From the NCBI RefSeq assembly GCF_003627795.1, contig NZ_CP032685.1, positions 868,001 through 932,000 on the forward strand: a stretch of DNA of 64,000 bases, written 5' to 3'. A program made the position numbers and the translations under genes. This document shows, in pieces, positions 35,405 through 44,109 of this stretch; positions within the stretch are counted from its first letter, which is position 1, and each line of letters opens with the position of its first letter. The notes beneath the pieces were generated by a model that made no database searches, had not been told where the DNA came from, and was given only the letters and a program-made list of their open reading frames with translations. The stretch comes from Rhizobium sp. CCGE531 (GTDB lineage Bacteria > Pseudomonadota > Alphaproteobacteria > Rhizobiales > Rhizobiaceae).

Positions 35405-36097
35405 TCAATCCGGCTCGCGCAGGCGATAGCCGACGCCCGTCTCGGTCGTGATATAATGCGGCTGATCGGGAATCTCCTCGATCTTCTGCCGGAGCTGGCG
35501 AACATAGACGCGCAGGTACTGCACGTCGGCCGCCGGCCCCCAGATCTGCTTCAACAGGAACTGATGCGTCAGCACCTTGCCGGCGTGCTGGGCAAGCACG
35601 CGCAGGATGTCGTATTCCTTCGGCGAAAGCTTGATCTCCTTGCCGTCGACCTTGACGATGCGCTTGACGAGATCGATGGAAAGGCCGCCGGTCTGGAAGA
35701 TCGCCTTCTCGCCCTGCTGCTGCAGCCGATGGCGCAGCGCCACGCGAATGCGGGCCGCAAGTTCGTTGACGCCGAAGGGCTTGGTCACATAGTCGTCGGC
35801 GCCGCTTTCGAGCGCCTTGACGATACCGGCCTCGTCCGTGCGGCTGGATAGAATGACGACCGGGATCTGCACCCCATCCTCGCGCCATTCCAAGAGCAGA
35901 TCCTGGCCCGATTTGTCGGGGAGGCCGAGATCGAGCACGATCAGGTCGGGCTGGTCCTCGTCCACCGAGGCTCGAGCAGACGCTGCATTCTGCGCCTCGT
36001 TGACGACGTAGCCCTGGGCACCGAGACCGACGCGCAGCAATTTGCGGATCGGCGGCTCGTCATCGACGACGAGAATCTTGACGGCGGTGGTGTTCAT
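35405..36097 (-). CDS. kdpE: KdpE response regulator
   Basis: 230 aa OmpR-type regulator. The receiver domain (about 8-122) has the acidic pair near the start (VVDDEPP), the phospho-Asp in VLDLGLPDKSG, and the conserved Lys in YVTKPFG. The C-terminal winged helix contains SPKEYDILRVLAQHAG and RVYVRQLRQKIE. Activated by KdpD, it turns on kdpFABC at low potassium. Its ATG overlaps the kdpD stop (ATGA). Confidence 0.94.
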   Translation of the reverse strand: MNTTAVKILVVDDEPPIRKLLRVGLGAQGYVVNEAQNAASARASVDEDQPDLIVLDLGLPDKSGQDLLLEWREDGVQIPVVILSSRTDEAGIVKALESGADDYVTKPFGVNELAARIRVALRHRLQQQGEKAIFQTGGLSIDLVKRIVKVDGKEIKLSPKEYDILRVLAQHAGKVLTHQFLLKQIWGPAADVQYLRVYVRQLRQKIEEIPDQPHYITTETGVGYRLREPD

Positions 36098-38805
36098 TTC
36101 AGTTCATCCAGCTTCGGGACATCTGTTGGTTTTGGCAGGCGAATGGTGAAGACAGCCCCTTGCCGATCCGTTCTGTTGCCGGCGGCGATCGTGCCGCCCA
36201 TCGCCTCGATGAAACCGCGGCAGATGGAAAGGCCAAGGCCGGTGCCGGCGCGCACCTGATCGCCCTTGCGCACGCGGTAGAACGTATCGAAGACGCGTTC
36301 GAGGTCGGCGGGCGGAATGCCCTGCCCCTCATCCATGACCCTGAAGACGATATTGTCGATATCGGCCCAGGCTTCGAGGCGGATGGCCGATCCTTCCGGC
36401 GCGTATTTGGCGGCGTTGTCGAGCAGGTTGAACAGCACCTGCTCGAACAGCACCGGATCGACCTTCACCATCGGCAGATCGACGGGCATCTGCACGTCGA
36501 CGCGGTGATGGGCCAGGATTTTTTTCGCCCTCCGCAACGCGCTGCCGACGATATCGCCGGCATAATGCAGGGCATAATTCGGCTCCATGGCGCCGGATTC
36601 GATCTTGGTCATATCAAGCAGATTGGCGATGAAGCGGTTGAGCCGTTCGGACTCATCGATAACGGTGGAAAGAAGGTCGACCCGGTCTTCGTTCGGCAAC
36701 GTCTCCAGATAATCGCGCAAGGTTCCGGCCGCACCGAGGATGGCGGCAAGCGGCGTCTTCAGGTCATGGGAAATGGATGTCAGCAGCGCGGAGCGCAGCC
36801 GATCCGCTTCCACGGCCAGCTTCGCGCGGTCGACATCGGCCACCAGTTGCACGCGCTCGATGGCGAGTGCCGCCTGGTCGGCGAGAGCATCGAGCAGCCG
36901 CTGCTGCTCAGGCGTCAGGAGCGGGCCGTCGCGACGATCGCTATCGAGGCCGATGACGCCGACGGCGGTTCGGCCTGTGCGGAGCGGAACGTAAAGGCGC
37001 TTGGCGCCGGGCAACGTATCGGCGCCGCGACCGGCCGCATGATTGTGCTCCCAGGCCCAGCGCGCCGCCGCGATATCGGCGTCATCAAGCGTATCGTCAG
37101 GCGGATAGCCGGCCCTGACGGCGATGGTGCCATGCTCGGGAAGAAGCAGCACGACCCGCAGCTTCAGCATCGAGGCCAGCTGAAAGGCCGTTGCCCAGAG
37201 AACGTCGTCGAGCGTGCCGGTGCCGGCGAGCTTCTTGGAGAAGAGATAGAGATCCTCGGTCGTCCGAGCGCGCTGTCGCGCCGCCACCGCCTGCCGTTGC
37301 ACCGTCGCCGTCAGATTGCTGGCGATCACCGCGACGCCTAGGAAGAAGAAGAAGGCGAGCACGCTTTCCGGATCGCTGATCGTTAGCGTATAGCGCGGCG
37401 GCAGGAAGAAGAAATTGAAGGCGAGCGCGCCGAGAAAACAGGAATAGAGCGCCGGACGCAGCCCTTGCGTGACAGCGCTGGCAAGAACCGCCATCAGGAA
37501 GACGAGCGCTAGGTTGCGCACATCCAGCACCTGATCGAGGATGACGCAGAAACCGAGCGCAATGGCCACATAGAGCGTTGCCAGAATATAGCCGCGCAAC
37601 TGGAAAGGCGGTGGCGAAGGCGCGACCTTGACGCCGCGGTTCGTCGCCTGGCCATCCGCATCGCTGCCGGAAATGACGTGGACGCTGATGTCTCCGGCCT
37701 TGCGGATGAGATCATAAGAAACCGAACGGCGGGACCAATCGCGCCAGGAGCCGATTTTCGGCGAACCGATGACGATGTGGGTCACATTGTTGCTGGCCGA
37801 ATGGCGAAGCAGTTCCTCCGCCACCTCGCGGCCCGGAAGGGTAATAGCCTCGCCGCCGAGCTGTTCGGCAAGCCTGAGCGTTGCGGCAATCGTGTCACGC
37901 TGCGCCTCCGTCAAGCCGATCGAGCGGTTGGTTTCGACATAGACGGCCGCCCAGGGCGCGCGCAGGCGCGACGCCATGCGCGCGGCATAGCGCACCAAGG
38001 ATGCCGAGCGCGGATGATGATCGATGGAGACGAGCACGCGCTCGCCGGCAGCCCAGGGACCTGGGATCGCATGCGCCTGCATATGGGTCAGGAGCTGGTC
38101 GTCGACGCGCTGGGCGGTGCGCCGCAGCGCCAGCTCGCGCAGCGCCGTCAGGTTGCCGGGCGTGAAATAATTGGTCAGCGCCCGCTCGGCCGTCTTCGAC
38201 ACATAGACCTTGCCGTCATGCAGCCGCTTGATGAGATCGTCCGGCGTCAGGTCGATGATCTCGACATCGTCGGCAAGATCGATGATGGAATCGGGCACGG
38301 TCTCGCGCACGCGGATGCGGGTGATCTGCGAGACGACGTCGTTCAGGCTTTCGACATGCTGGATATTCAGCGTCGTGTAAACGTCGATCCCGCGTTCGAG
38401 AAGCTCCTTCACATCGAGGTAGCGCTTCGGATGCCGGCTGCCATGCGCGTTGGTGTGGGCGAGTTCGTCGACCAGCACCAGTTCGGGACGGCGCTCCAGG
38501 ATCGCGTCGAGATCCATCTCCTCGAGCGCGCGCCCCTTGTAATCGACATTGATGCGCGGAATGATCTCGAACCCGTCGAGCAAGGCCTGCGTCTCGCGAC
38601 GGCCGTGAGTCTCGACGACGCCGACGACGACATCGACGCCGTCCGCGATCTTCGCCCTGCCGGACATCAGCATCTCGTAGGTCTTGCCGACGCCGGGGGC
38701 CGCACCCAGGAAAACCTTCAATCGCCCGCGTGTCTCGGCCCGCGCCTTTTCGAGAAGCGCATCGGGGGAAGGCCTGCTCAACATGTCGCGGCTTTCATCT
38801 GCCAT
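36094..38805 (-). CDS. kdpD: KdpD potassium/osmotic sensor histidine kinase
   Basis: 903 aa membrane kinase. It has an N-terminal KdpD domain with Walker A GAAPGVGKT (34-42), a universal-stress-like region (about 255-370) and four transmembrane helices (about 400-500). A GAF-like region (about 525-650), the HisKA His in SISHDLKTPLAAI (about 679) and a HATPase with GTGLGLSICRG follow. All expected domains are present at normal length. A perfect hairpin precedes it (38829-38856), so its level may differ from that of kdpFABC. It controls KdpE. Confidence 0.94.
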   Translation of the reverse strand: MADESRDMLSRPSPDALLEKARAETRGRLKVFLGAAPGVGKTYEMLMSGRAKIADGVDVVVGVVETHGRRETQALLDGFEIIPRINVDYKGRALEEMDLDAILERRPELVLVDELAHTNAHGSRHPKRYLDVKELLERGIDVYTTLNIQHVESLNDVVSQITRIRVRETVPDSIIDLADDVEIIDLTPDDLIKRLHDGKVYVSKTAERALTNYFTPGNLTALRELALRRTAQRVDDQLLTHMQAHAIPGPWAAGERVLVSIDHHPRSASLVRYAARMASRLRAPWAAVYVETNRSIGLTEAQRDTIAATLRLAEQLGGEAITLPGREVAEELLRHSASNNVTHIVIGSPKIGSWRDWSRRSVSYDLIRKAGDISVHVISGSDADGQATNRGVKVAPSPPPFQLRGYILATLYVAIALGFCVILDQVLDVRNLALVFLMAVLASAVTQGLRPALYSCFLGALAFNFFFLPPRYTLTISDPESVLAFFFFLGVAVIASNLTATVQRQAVAARQRARTTEDLYLFSKKLAGTGTLDDVLWATAFQLASMLKLRVVLLLPEHGTIAVRAGYPPDDTLDDADIAAARWAWEHNHAAGRGADTLPGAKRLYVPLRTGRTAVGVIGLDSDRRDGPLLTPEQQRLLDALADQAALAIERVQLVADVDRAKLAVEADRLRSALLTSISHDLKTPLAAILGAAGTLRDYLETLPNEDRVDLLSTVIDESERLNRFIANLLDMTKIESGAMEPNYALHYAGDIVGSALRRAKKILAHHRVDVQMPVDLPMVKVDPVLFEQVLFNLLDNAAKYAPEGSAIRLEAWADIDNIVFRVMDEGQGIPPADLERVFDTFYRVRKGDQVRAGTGLGLSICRGFIEAMGGTIAAGNRTDRQGAVFTIRLPKPTDVPKLDELK

Positions 38806-38864: not shown

Positions 38865-39470
38865 TTATTGAGTCATAGAAGCATCGAGCGCCTGGTTCAA
38901 TGCCAGCACATTGACCACCGGCTCGCCGAGAACGCCGAGCTCTCGCGGCTCGATGGCAGCCTCGACGAGTGACTTGACCTTGGCCTCATCGATGTTGCGC
39001 GCCTTGGCCACGCGCGGGATTTGGAAATAGGCATCTTCAGCCGAGATGTCAGGATCGAGGCCGCTGCCCGATGTGGTCACCATATCGATCGGAACCGGCA
39101 CATTCGGGTTCTGCGCCTGCAACGTCGCGGCGTCGCTCTTGATACGGGTGATCAGGCTCGAATTGGTCGGACCGAGATTGGAGCCGCCGGAATTGGCGGC
39201 ATTATAGGGTGCGGAAACCGATTTGGTCGGGTCATTCGGGTCGGCGCCTGTCGTGGCCGACGGGCGGCCATGGAAATAGCGGTCGGTCGTGAAACTCTGG
39301 CCGATGAGGCTGGAGCCGATCACCTTGCCGTCCTTCTCCACCAGGCTGCCATTCGCCTGATGGGGGAAGAGGGCCTGGGCGACGCCTGTCATGGCGAGCG
39401 GATAGGCAAGGCCGGTCAAAACGGTCGTGGCGACGATCATAACGATGGCGGGTCTGATTTGTTTCAGCAT
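38865..39470 (-). CDS. kdpC: Potassium-transporting ATPase subunit KdpC
   Basis: 201 aa single-pass membrane protein. It has an N-terminal helix ([20 protein letters not shown]) and the family motifs [17 protein letters not shown] and [16 protein letters not shown]. It ends with [11 protein letters not shown]. It assists the KdpB catalytic cycle in the complex. The start has GGAGATTTCCC upstream, 11 bases after kdpB. Confidence 0.94.
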
Positions 39471-39481
39471 GGGAAATCTCC

Positions 39482-41569
39482 TTAGACCAGGCCGATGGCG
39501 GTAATCGCCATGTCGATGGCTTTGATGCCGATAAAGGGTACGATGATACCGCCAAGGCCGTAGATCAGCAGGTTGCGGCTGAGCAGCGCGCCGGCACCGA
39601 TCGGGCGATAGCGAACGCCCTTCAGCGACAGCGGGATCAGCGCGACGATGATCAGCGCATTGAAGATGATCGCCGAGAGGATGGCGCTTTGCGGCGTCGC
39701 CAGCCCCATGATGTTCAGCATCTTCAGCTGCGGATAGAAGGCAATGAACATGGCCGGGATGATAGCGAAGTACTTCGCGATGTCGTTGGCGATCGAGAAG
39801 GTCGTCAGCGCGCCACGGGTCATCAGCAGCTGCTTGCCAATCTCGACGATCTCGATGAGCTTCGTCGGGTCGCTGTCGAGATCGACCATGTTGCCGGCTT
39901 CGCGGGCGGCGACCGTACCGGTGTTCATGGCAACGCCGACATCGGCCTGGGCAAGTGCGGGCGCATCGTTCGTGCCGTCGCCGCACATGGCGACGAGCTT
40001 GCCCTGCGCCTGCTCCTGGCGCATCAGCGCCAGCTTCATTTCCGGGGTCGCCTGGGCGAGGAAGTCGTCGACGCCGGCTTCGGCGGCAATGGCGGCTGCC
40101 GTCAGCGGGTTGTCGCCCGTGATCATCACGGTGCGGATACCCATGCGGCGCAGTTCCGCAAAGCGTTCGCGGATCCCGCCCTTGACGATGTCCTTGAGGT
40201 GGATGACGCCGAGAAGGCGGCCATCACGGGCAACGGCAAGCGGTGTGCCGCCGGCCTTGGCGATCTCGTCGGCGATCACCTGCAGCTCGCGCAGCGTTTC
40301 GCTTGATGTGCGGGACATGACGGCGGCGCCTTCATGGCTACCGTTGGCAGCACCTTGCACATAGGCGACCACGGCATCGACGGCGCCTTTTCGGATCGAG
40401 GAGCCTTCGAGGTCGACGCCGCTCATGCGGGTCTGCGCGGTAAAGGGAACGAAGGTCGCCTTCAGGCTCGTCATGTCGCGGCCGCGGATCGCATATTTCT
40501 CCTTGGCAAGCACGACGATCGAGCGCCCTTCCGGCGTCTCGTCGGCAAGCGAGGCAAGCTGTGCGGCATCGGCGAGATCCTGCTCGCTGATACCCCGGAC
40601 CGGGCGGAAAGCGGTCGCCTGGCGGTTGCCGAGCGTGATCGTACCGGTCTTGTCGAGGAGCAGTGTGTCGACGTCGCCTGCGGCTTCGACGGCGCGGCCC
40701 GACATGGCGAGCACGTTGAAGCGCACCAGGCGATCCATGCCGGCAATACCGATCGCCGAAAGCAATGCACCGATGGTGGTCGGGATCAGCGTCACGAAGA
40801 GCGCGACGAGCACGACCGTCTGGATCGAACCGCCGGCATAGGCGGCAAAGCTCGGGATGGTGACGGTCGCCAAAACGAAGATCAGCGTCATGCCGGCCAG
40901 CAGGATGTTGAGCGCGATTTCGTTCGGCGTCTTCTGCCGTTCGGCACCTTCGACCAGCGCGATCATGCGGTCGATGAAGGTCGAGCCGGCGGCAGCGGTG
41001 ATGCGCACGCGGATTTCATCCGACAGAACCTGCGTACCGCCGGTGACCGCCGAGCGGTCGCCGCCCGATTCACGGATCACAGGCGCGGATTCACCGGTGA
41101 TCGCGGCTTCGTTGACAGAAGCGACGCCTTCGATGACTTCGCCATCAGACGGGATGATATCGCCGGCTTCGACCAGAACGACGTCACCGACCTTCAGGCT
41201 GGTACCAGGCACCATCTTGTAGTCGGTGCGGCTGTTGCCGGTCAGAAGTTTGGCTTGCGTTTCGGTGCGCGACTTGCGCAGCGAATCCGCCTGTGCCTTG
41301 CCGCGGCCTTCGGCGACGGCCTCGGCGAAATTGGCAAACAGCACCGTGAACCACAGCCAGATATTGATCTGCAGCGAGAAGCCGAGATTGCCGCCGCCGG
41401 TGATGAGATCGCGCAGGAAGAGGACAGTCGTCAGTGCCGAAACGACGGCGACCACGAACATGACGGGGTTTTTGGCAAGCGTACGCGGGTTCAACTTCGT
41501 GAACGAAGCGCCGATCGCCGGAACGAGAATGCGAGAATCCAGAATACTCGCTGATTTTAACTGGCTCAT
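39482..41569 (-). CDS. kdpB: Potassium-transporting P-type ATPase subunit KdpB
   Basis: 695 aa P-type ATPase that powers K+ import. Visible motifs are the actuator TGES (about 160), the phosphorylation site DKTGT (about 306) and the hinge [20 protein letters not shown] (about 525). About seven membrane helices are present, as expected. The N-terminus [17 protein letters not shown] is typical of alphaproteobacterial KdpB. It has good gene spacing to kdpC. Confidence 0.95.
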
Positions 41570-41617
41570 AAGAGGCTCCAGCGTGAAGAGGAAAACGTCA
41601 GATCGGAACGCAGCCGA

Positions 41618-41779
41618 TCAGCCGATCAAAAATCCGAAGACGACAAGGCCGAGGAACAGGGCAACCATCGCCAGCAAAATGGCGTCGGACGCACAGGTTA
41701 TTCCGGCCGGGCCACGCCCCCTGTCGAAGGGGCGTGGATCGATGACTTTTCTAAGCTTGCCTAGAAGCGGTTGGCTCAT
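41618..41779 (-). CDS. 53-aa single-helix membrane peptide between kdpA and kdpB
   Basis: Short frame from an ATG at 41779, 12 bases after the kdpA stop. The soluble N-terminus is basic (MSQPLLGKLRKVIDPRPFDR), and a hydrophobic helix follows (AILLAMVALFLGLVVFGFLI). It begins with the same Met-Ser-Gln as KdpB. Placement within the operon, a stop 48 bases ahead of kdpB and the clean helix make it a likely real small protein. It could be a Kdp-complex accessory. No known family name. Direct expression evidence is not available. Confidence 0.6.
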   Translation of the reverse strand: MSQPLLGKLRKVIDPRPFDRGRGPAGITCASDAILLAMVALFLGLVVFGFLIG

Positions 41780-41791
41780 GGCCGTCATTCC

Positions 41792-43495
41792 TTAAAAGGT
41801 CTGGCCCGCGATCATCGCCAGATGCTCGACGATCGGTCCGAGCGCCAGCGCCGGGAAGAAGGTCAGGCCGCCGACGATGAGGATGGTGCCGACCAGCAGG
41901 CCGACGAAAAGCGGGCCATCCGTCGGGAAGGTGCCGGCCGAAGCGGGAACCGTCTTCTTGCTGATCAGCGAGCCGGCGATCGCAAGGGCCGGAACGATGA
42001 CCAGGAAGCGGCCGATCAGCATGGCGATACCAAGCGTAATATTGTACCAAGGCGTGTTGCCGGAGAGGCCGCCGAAGGCCGAGCCGTTGTTTGCCGCCGC
42101 CGAACTGTAGGCATAGAGGATCTCCGAGAAGCCGTGCGGGCCGGCATTGCTGACCGACGCAACGGCGGACGGCAATACCACGGAGATTGCCGTGAAGATC
42201 AGCATGCCGGCGGGCAGGCAAAGCACGGCGAGCATTGCCATCTTCACTTCCTTGGCCTCGATCTTCTTGCCGAGATATTCCGGCGTGCGCCCGACCATCA
42301 GGCCGGCAACGAAGATGGCGATGACGACGAACATCAGAATGCCGTAGAAACCGGCGCCGACGCCGCCGACAATGACTTCGCCGAGCTGCAGGTTGATGAG
42401 GGGGATCAGGCCGCCGATCGCCGTGAAGCTGTCGAGCATGCCGTTGACCGCGCCGCAGGATGCCGCGGTAGTGATGACGGCGAAGAGCGAGGAGGCAGCA
42501 ATCCCGAAGCGGACTTCCTTGCCTTCCATATTGCCGCCCTGGATTCCGAGCGCGTGAACAAGCGGATTGCCGGCCGCTTCAGCCCAATAGGTGACGATCA
42601 CGCCGGCGATGAACAGCGTGCCCATCGCGGCCAGGATCGCCCAGCCCTGCCGCTGGCTGCCGACCATGCGGCCGAAGACGTTGGTGAGCGCCGCGCCGAC
42701 GGCGAAGATCGACAGCATCTGCAGGAGATTGGAGATCGCGTCCGGGTTTTCGAAGGGATGCGCCGAGTTGGCATTGAAGAAGCCACCGCCGTTCGTGCCG
42801 AGCATCTTGATGGCAAGCTGCGAGGCAACGGGTCCGACGGCAATCGTCTGCTGCGCCCCTTCGAGCGTCGTCGCATTGACATAGGGTCCAAGCGTCTGCG
42901 GGACGCCGAGATAGACGAATACAATCGTCAAGACGATGCAGATCGGCAGCAGGACGTAGAGCGTGGCTCTTGTCATGTCGACCCAGAAATTGCCGATAGC
43001 CTTGCCCGAAGCACGCGCAAATGCGCGGATCAGCGCAATGGCGATGGCAATGCCGGTTGCGGCAGACACGAAGTTCTGCACGGTCAGGCCGGCCATCTGC
43101 ACGAGATAGGACATCGTGCTTTCGCCGCCGTAGTTCTGCCAATTGGTATTGGTGACGAAGCTGGTCGCCGTATTGAAGGACAGTTCCGGCCCGACCGCGG
43201 TCATGCCAGCCGGATTATACGGCAGGCCGGCCTGCAGTCGCTGCAGCGCGTAGAGGACGAGAAAGCCGGCAAGGCTGAACAGCAGCATGGAGACCGAATA
43301 GGTCGTCCAGTGCTGCTCTTCGCGCTCGTTCGTGCCGGCCAAACGATAAAGCCCCCGCTCCACAGGACGGAGGACGAAGGAGAGGAAGGTGCGCTCGCCG
43401 GTAAAGACACGCGTCATGTAACCGCCGAGCGGTTTGACGAGCAGGAGTAGGATCCCGATGTAAAGGAGGATCTGAAGCCATCCGTTGAAGGTCAT
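41792..43495 (-). CDS. kdpA: Potassium-transporting ATPase subunit KdpA
   Basis: 567 aa multi-pass channel-like subunit with K+ selectivity-filter motifs such as [34 protein letters not shown] and [17 protein letters not shown]. About ten membrane helices. The ATG at 43495 has GGAGG upstream. KdpA receives K+ from the periplasm and passes it to KdpB. It follows kdpF by 27 bases. Confidence 0.95.
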
Positions 43496-43522
43496 GGAGG
43501 TAACTTTCCCTATCCAGCGCTG

Positions 43523-43612
43523 TCAGAAGCGCTCGGGGCGAATAAGAGCATAGACCAGGTAGACAGTGAGAAAGATCGTCACGCCGCCACCAAGAATGTA
43601 ATCGAGAAGCAT
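43523..43612 (-). CDS. kdpF: KdpF small membrane subunit
   Basis: 29 aa single-pass peptide. The helix TIFLTVYLVYALIRPERF ends in the (L/I)xxPE(R/K)F motif diagnostic of KdpF. It starts at 43612 and lies just before kdpA. KdpF stabilises the KdpABC complex in E. coli. The length matches exactly. Confidence 0.9.
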   Translation of the reverse strand: MLLDYILGGGVTIFLTVYLVYALIRPERF

Positions 43613-43626
43613 TGCCGTCTCTCCGA

Positions 43627-43710
43627 CTAGAGGCTGTCGCAGGCCTTGGTATAAGCGACGCAAAGGAGGAAGAATAAAACGCCGATCCCGACAAGAATGA
43701 TGTCCATCAT
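43627..43710 (-). CDS. 27-aa membrane peptide preceding kdpF
   Basis: Short frame starting with two Met codons, with hydrophobic core ILVGIGVLFFLLCVAYTKA and a C-terminal CDSL. A CDxL-ended peptide of this kind precedes kdpF in various proteobacteria, in my recollection, but has no assigned function. It ends 14 bases before kdpF. Probably first gene of the kdp transcript. Confidence 0.65.
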   Translation of the reverse strand: MMDIILVGIGVLFFLLCVAYTKACDSL

Positions 43711-44109
43711 CGATCGCGAGTCCTTGATTGTTATTGTTGAATGCAGAAATAATGGAGGGCGCTTCACACGAAAGCGCCTCTTTTCATTCTGCCTGGGGAA
43801 GAGCACTTCAGGTGTATCTTCGCCATGCAATATGCGACCGAACCGCATTAAGGTTCGAGACGGACGGAAAGGGAAAGATATAAAAATCTTATAAATGCCG
43901 ATGGGGTTGCCGAGATGAGCGGGGATGGCCCTATGTCCAGCCTGGACCGCTCGCCTGAGGCAGTCGACAAGGATATAGCGAGATACGAATGCTGAGCCGG
44001 CATCGCGCTTGATGCCGCTTCCCACCAGTGATTTAGTCGACGGATACGGATCGAGTTTTTACAACCCGGTCCCACGATATGCGACCGCCAGAAAAAGAAA
44101 TGCGAGCCA
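43711..44109. promoter_or_regulatory. Divergent region, kdp leader and LacI-gene leader
   Basis: 399 bases. A hairpin GGCGCTT/AAGCGCC at 43758-43778 is followed on the plus strand by TCTTTT. Read on the minus strand it lies in the kdp leader. An AT-rich block at 43850-43900 could hold promoters. KdpE should bind here, but no certain site was identified. No further gene is seen. Confidence 0.4.

Follow-up and report, generated by a model that had tools for sequence, protein, structure and literature searches.

The kdp operon of Rhizobium sp. CCGE531 carries, besides kdpF, two further genes for membrane-type microproteins, pep27 and ORFX, whose reading frames are conserved and under purifying selection in related kdp loci. 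KdpFABC is described as a heterotetramer of KdpA, KdpB, KdpC and KdpF (excerpt of PMC10654040). The explanation that we regard as most likely is that both peptides act on this complex, where the 27-mer would be an extra small subunit or assembly factor and the 53-mer a lineage-specific regulator, with two mRNA hairpins tuning the output of ORFX itself or of KdpB. For the full version, in which both peptides are made and associated with the pump and the ORFX hairpins set the output, we estimate a probability of roughly 0.55.

Gene order and frame selection

The window, i.e., the whole stretch of 64,000 nucleotides analyzed here, holds on its minus strand the order pep27, kdpF, kdpA, ORFX, kdpB, kdpC and kdpD according to the ORF coordinates (Table 1); kdpC (from its position) and kdpD (from its length and position) carry presumptive names. 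The original prediction had announced two extra membrane micro-protein ORFs besides KdpF, whose coordinates and peptide lengths (27 and 53 aa) were right, and the 12 bases that it gave between kdpA and ORFX are exact when measured from the kdpA stop. It overlooked the hairpins in and just after ORFX, and also that some relatives, R. etli CFN 42 among them, have lost ORFX. The pep27 ORF has the sequence MMDIILVGIGVLFFLLCVAYTKACDSL and ORFX reads MSQPLLGK..FLIG, which an alternative in-frame ATG at 41788 would extend to 56 aa. Ribosome-binding-type sites similar to that of ORFX lie in most of 100 loci, where the start codons were chosen partly by the site itself. Each peptide shows one hydrophobic stretch, as judged by hydropathy only. 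Plasmid NZ_CP032690.1 of Rhizobium sp. CCGE532 is identical (100%) to the window over a segment of 2,401 bases.

Table 1. Features of the kdp locus, in positions of the window
Feature	Position	Strand	Basis
pep27, 27-aa membrane microprotein gene, directly before kdpF	43627..43710	-	conservation, dN/dS, conserved residues
AAGGA, ribosome-binding-type sequence of pep27, 10 nt before ATG	43721..43725	-	sequence
kdpF, 29 aa	43523..43612	-	PF09604 E=1e-8, TIGR02115 E=5e-9
kdpA, 567 aa	41792..43495	-	ORF and kdpA search
AAGGA, ribosome-binding-type sequence of ORFX, 9 nt before ATG, overlaps kdpA stop codon	41789..41793	-	sequence
ORFX, 53-aa membrane microprotein gene between kdpA and kdpB	41618..41779	-	same-place homologues, purifying selection, charge
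mRNA hairpin H1 inside ORFX, 11-bp stem, 4-nt loop, codons 15-23	41712..41737	-	covariation, synonymous-codon null
mRNA hairpin H2, overlaps and follows ORFX stop codon, 6-bp stem	41601..41619	-	covariation
kdpB, 695 aa, contains TGES	39482..41569	-	ORF
kdpC	38865..39470	-	ORF position
kdpD sensor kinase gene, start of regulatory genes, directly after kdpC	36094..38805	-	ORF length, position

Conservation of the frames in related kdp loci had been named beforehand as a test, and both ORFs are conserved there. Mean pairwise dN/dS lies well below 1, at 0.12-0.20 for the 27-mer (0.12 within the tropici-type group, 0.20 among the remaining relatives, 0.19 for the two combined) and at 0.26-0.39 for the 53-mer (0.26 over 37 distinct tropici-type sequences, 0.39 over 31 distinct 51-aa sequences). 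When replacement and silent changes were counted on trees, pep27 gave z = -7.1 and -12.8 in two groups and ORFX z = -10.7 and -8.2. Among the control frames of both ORFs, the other two forward frames gave +1.7 to +6.1, and a reverse frame with the wobble position in common gave a negative but smaller signal (-3.4 to -6.9). The spacer holds 12 changes only (frame 0 z -2.2) and is too small as a control, so the shifted frames serve instead. From such comparisons the coding status of pep27 and ORFX is well supported. Both also show two marks of a subunit, a conserved position inside the kdp unit and selection as protein, and together with the hydropathy this bears out the proposal of selected, membrane-type microproteins within that unit. 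Against Pfam and NCBIfam neither peptide matched above a curated cut-off, the matches being at chance level (E 0.15 and 0.46).

A peptide widespread beside kdpF

Across 217 distinct peptides from 272 loci, pep27 keeps the residue pattern D-FF-Y-C[DE]-L, with D near the N-terminus in 97% (of the 175 reaching that column), F in 89%, Y in 85%, C in 83%, D or E in 81% and L in 78%; some start codons in this count were set too far downstream and lengths are approximate. The mean number of K/R in these peptides is 0.005 in the first six residues vs 1.37 in the last six, a concentration that by the positive-inside rule means a predicted N-out, C-in topology. KdpF (PF09604/TIGR02115) resembles pep27 in being a single-helix peptide of about 29 aa from the same operon and of the same size class, with C-terminal positive charge; however, pep27 and ORFX give no KdpF match, and the charge topology of ORFX is opposite to that of KdpF. 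Origin of pep27 as a KdpF paralogue was rejected (hhalign probability 1%), and it has no match among PDB sequences.

Relatives of the 27-mer before kdpF had been suggested for other proteobacteria, and a profile search finds them there and spread well beyond. The profile was built from 32 peptides of named loci by a length and residue filter on ORFs before kdpA (L276 is a doubtful member), and the scan covered all forward-frame segments upstream of kdpA; the best of 5,245 reverse-strand and shuffled control segments scored 6.9 bits, and the threshold was set at 7.9. All 91 genus loci scanned gave a match above all controls (of the 93 retrieved, L061 and L062 were omitted, and both show the peptide on reading). 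In the rest of the family 55 of 60 loci matched, and in the class and phylum surveys of Pseudomonadota 48 of 74, or 44 of 70 when only loci distinct from the earlier ones are counted, some of which again fall in this family. Of the named loci held out of training, 46 of 55 matched. The held-out matches include Deinococcus radiodurans (L263) and bins of Chloroflexi (L294), Coriobacteriia (L306), Gemmatimonadetes (L310), Acidobacteriaceae (L321) and Melainabacteria (L344), while further Acidobacteria, Ktedonospora and Myxococcus peptides were already contained in the training set.

Of the 70 distinct loci from the Pseudomonadota surveys, 26 remained below the threshold, although a look-alike occupies the position in some of them. 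By eye, a similar peptide stands at the position in the sub-threshold L165-L167 and in several Paenibacillus/Cohnella and other loci (e.g., L247, L253), and three of the misses (L182, L322, L340) have little or no upstream sequence. No pep27-like peptide was seen upstream of kdpA in Tsukamurella, Halobacterium or the putatively enteric-like and Pseudomonas-like loci, and upstream of kdpF in E. coli K-12 no such segment is present (best profile score 0.3 bits).

In the loci read, pep27 stays beside kdpF. This holds even in two loci (L256, L257) where the two genes are swapped, pep27 coming after kdpF and before kdpA, and the second kdp locus of one genome (L214 of G443) has a 38-aa pep27-like ORF directly before kdpA with no kdpF-like ORF listed between. 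A further single-helix ORF of 28-45 aa lies between kdpF and kdpA in L232, L233, L235 and L241 (family f140) and in the Bradyrhizobium loci L298, L308, L309, L313, L325, L330, L331, L336 and L342, with MLLLAELLLADAALVAGLLALLLPLLRRTQSLKG as one example of these ORFs, and is not among the ORFs listed for Bradyrhizobium sp. ARR65 (L302). Two genomes of the genus, G340 (contig C46) and G384 (contig C88), hold a second, distant kdpA of 52% and 50% identity besides the main one.

Twenty-seven codons are below the usual length limit of gene callers, and because of this small size pep27 is likely invisible in annotation. Five of six annotated plasmid records that carry the peptide list no gene there, the plasmid gene table being incomplete, and among these is the R. 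johnstonii 3841 pRL11 record as listed. The sixth record, from Mycetohabitans rhizoxinica, has a 34-aa peptide of pep27 type at the same place before kdpF (WP_338861741.1), whose automatic name "potassium ABC transporter ATPase" is misleading for 34 residues; our literature search found no paper on it. A search of the open-access literature, to which this statement is confined, found no description of either peptide among the papers listed, and excerpts of Kdp papers on Sinorhizobium fredii and R. leguminosarum mention neither. Work on Caulobacter regards the roughly 100 nt before kdpF as a 5′ UTR with structure.

We propose that translation of both ORFs would yield inner-membrane peptides with a single helix, produced along with the Kdp pump, and that pep27 may be an old and widespread extra small subunit, or an assembly or stability factor, of KdpFABC beside KdpF, which E. 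coli and some other lineages would lack. A structural subunit or assembly factor would fit because the gene adjoins kdpF and the strongly conserved residues lie at both membrane borders. Conservation beside kdpF from Rhizobium to Deinococcus, with absence in E. coli K-12, suggests a reduced complex in E. coli and a further helix in many Kdp pumps. Since the PDB search matched a single KdpF sequence (6hra chain D, 14 entries, E 0.31), presumably that of E. coli, no complex bearing pep27 has been solved as far as this search shows.

A fast-evolving peptide between kdpA and kdpB

ORFX is a constrained but fast-evolving protein, since its dN/dS compares with 0.04-0.12 for the kdpA and kdpB stretches of the same loci. 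It consists of a tail of about 30 residues, rich in Arg, Pro and Gly, and a C-terminal helix; the hairpin accounts for part of its N-terminal composition. The mean number of K/R is 6.7 before the helix vs 0.2 after, with more before in 99 of 99 members, and the topology predicted from charge only, with the helix taken from hydropathy only, is N-in, C-out. As other identities, KdpF (no profile match; highest comparison probability 14%) and a duplicated KdpB N-terminus (residues 1-90; 0.2%, no better than the 0.2-4.0% of nine KdpA control stretches) were rejected, and the best PDB match, RutD with E 0.26, was taken as chance.

Phospholamban and sarcolipin are micropeptide regulators of P2A ATPases, the animal Ca2+ pumps, and phospholamban is built as a tail plus a helix. 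ORFX resembles them in size and, putatively, in having a P-type ATPase as partner, and its layout of a basic N-tail followed by one C-terminal helix, present throughout the 99 members by charge and hydropathy, is that of phospholamban with its cytoplasmic tail; they differ in domain of life and pump class, and the likeness is architectural, with no sequence relation claimed. Single-helix subunits of P2A pumps are also mentioned in the excerpt of PMC10654040. Because a tail-plus-helix peptide is encoded here beside a P-type ATPase gene, we suggest that ORFX, with an N-in cytoplasmic tail and C-terminal helix, would be a lineage-restricted accessory peptide of the same Kdp pump that probably modulates KdpB in a phospholamban-like manner. 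E. coli KdpB is switched off via phosphorylation of Ser162 in the TGES motif (excerpt of PMC7535926); the KdpB of the window keeps TGES, so that control by ORFX would add to this control and not replace it.

The position of ORFX is nearly constant. Searching 148 genus genomes gave 60 matches at E<=0.01, and 59 of them follow the kdpA match on its strand at a distance of 8-59 nt from its end; the sole exception (in G414) is the second weakest match, with E 0.00999. This bears on an alternative in which the peptides are real membrane proteins acting on KdpD or another partner, the operon giving co-expression only. Small membrane peptides on sensor kinases are known, such as MgrB, an inhibitor of the PhoQ kinase (excerpt of PMC10903887), and kdpD follows kdpC directly here, but the two genes are interleaved with those of the pump, ORFX beside kdpA and pep27 beside kdpF, and we hold an action away from the pump to be quite improbable.

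Within the genus, 93 of 145 main kdpA loci were read, chosen partly by closeness and not as a random sample. An ORF of at least 44 aa stands at the ORFX place in 79 of them (L098 with an altered C-terminus) and is missing or broken in 14, ten of which have gaps of 62-65 nt and one a gap of 82 nt; ORFX is shifted or truncated in L079, L095 and L103. Several short kdpA-kdpB scars keep the first ORFX codons; in some of these GTG has replaced ATG, R. etli CFN 42 (L117) being an example. Among 60 further family loci, 21 have ORFX, one has it displaced (L129) and one broken (L138), and the rest have none besides L152 and L153, which hold helix-only forms of 25-28 aa related by position only. Nineteen of 87 named loci, three of which hold no kdpB in the stretch, have an ORFX-type ORF; all belong to the Hyphomicrobiales (Rhizobium, Sinorhizobium, Mesorhizobium, Agrobacterium, Methylobacterium, one unnamed Rhizobiales bacterium, and, assigned by position and type only, Microvirga and Bosea), and no named locus outside this order has one. 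Kdp thus has no need of ORFX, given these 14 genus loci and its absence beyond the Hyphomicrobiales, and the peptide forms a natural presence/absence series in close rhizobia, being present in 3841 and lost in CFN 42.

A single 53-aa query in a family-wide search found itself only, because the relatives have about 35-45% identity, and position relative to kdpA was used instead. Profile comparison shows the subfamilies to be homologous (E 3e-18, 5e-9 and 2e-11). The Methylobacterium-type ORFX matches the 51-aa group with E 3e-6, an outer group with 2e-5 and the window's own group with 1e-3; the match probability is weak for the last (22%) vs 88% and 78% for the two other groups. The original prediction called the 53-aa peptide not known; this needs correcting, as its 51-aa homologue between kdpA and kdpB on pRL11 of R. 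johnstonii 3841 is annotated (RL_RS40320/WP_165447751.1), as a "hypothetical protein" without function or family.

Fast evolution, the eleven genus loci with 62-82-nt gaps and the deletions, frameshifts and truncations in L079, L095, L098, L103 and L138 (single-locus lesions of this kind may be assembly errors) would be expected if ORFX were a transient coding sequence of little use and without a specific role, which survives by chance in some clades while it decays in others. We think this very unlikely in view of frame selection across dozens of species, the constant position, and homologues in several genera and Methylobacterium. In five Mesorhizobium loci ORFX overlaps kdpB by 4 nt, which is expected to couple their translation. 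Two loci have long kdpA-kdpB gaps of 343 and 426 nt (L120 and L154, respectively) with extra sequence after ORFX, and in L154 a longer second ORF overlaps ORFX.

Hairpins within and after ORFX

From 33 folded kdpA-kdpB junctions, the 26 of the genus were aligned, seven from other genera being omitted. For these 26, H1 within ORFX and H2 at the ORFX stop are the only helices that RNAalifold predicts. In this structure 94.6% of the cells pair vs 37-51% after sliding the partners. For covariation the score is 0.334 vs 0.150 (sd 0.015) in shuffled alignments, none of 500 shuffles reaching it, and eight of 17 pairs have changes on both sides; relatedness of the sequences inflates such figures. Compensatory changes occur in six of 11 pairs of H1 (95.8% of cells paired) and two of six pairs of H2 are changed on both sides (92.3% of cells paired), one of them being C-G in 14 and U-A in 10 of the 26 sequences. 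Sinorhizobium and Mesorhizobium nevertheless have a hairpin of the H1 kind, differing in sequence, at about the same location. Tested against 100 synonymous recodings per ORF, H1 has a median z of 2.5 over 98 ORFs, with 875 of 9,800 recodings equal to or better than the real sequence; a number of ORFs, most of them from other genera, do not exceed the null, and the best stem of L147 and L290 falls within the helix region. H1 was rejected as a dispersed palindromic repeat (a single place in the 7.1 Mb genome with up to 3 mismatches allowed) and as a known Rfam element (matches far below gathering scores only), and a simple scan finds no intrinsic terminator at H1 or H2.

ORFX might be mainly cis-acting, in which case the hairpin pair would tune RNA stability, pausing or translation and the peptide would be an intra-operon leader whose translation opens H1. 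The two hairpins covary and are independently predicted, H1 exceeds the synonymous-codon null, and the R. etli type has lost the ORF along with the hairpin. H1 also changes more slowly than the rest of ORFX in the tropici group (1.00 vs 2.69 changes per site), but in the 51-aa group it is hardly slower (2.14 vs 2.41). Frame selection, moreover, stays strong outside the hairpin (codons 24-53, z -8.7; codons 22-51 of the other group, z -5.2), and the selection signal therefore does not come from it; Methylobacterium-type relatives have no hairpin at the H1 place, and the helix-only ORFs of L152 and L153, tied to ORFX by position only, lack the hairpin domain. A mainly cis-acting ORFX is on this evidence unlikely.

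We prefer a membrane peptide at the pump and read the hairpins as a second, RNA-level function on top of it, in an unusual overlap of coding and RNA-structure constraint within an intra-operon microgene. H1 and H2 probably act on the kdpA-kdpB mRNA and would set the amounts of ORFX and KdpB per KdpA. More tentatively, and with odds somewhat below even, the sequence comparisons may be taken to suggest that in many bacteria outside the enterics KdpFABC is a five-component machine with a further conserved 26-35-aa subunit beside KdpF. Such a subunit would have escaped notice through being shorter than gene callers accept and through its absence from E. coli, the model for structural work. In the Hyphomicrobiales a phospholamban-like peptide would come on top as the sixth component, and its gene in rhizobia would serve at the same time as a structured RNA element that sets how much of the downstream ATPase is made.

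The 48-nt spacer between ORFX and kdpB (41570-41617) is highly conserved in the tropici group, with 12 changes in 21 taxa vs 384 changes in 38 taxa over 159 nt of ORFX. H2 and the kdpB ribosome-binding site would explain only part of this conservation.
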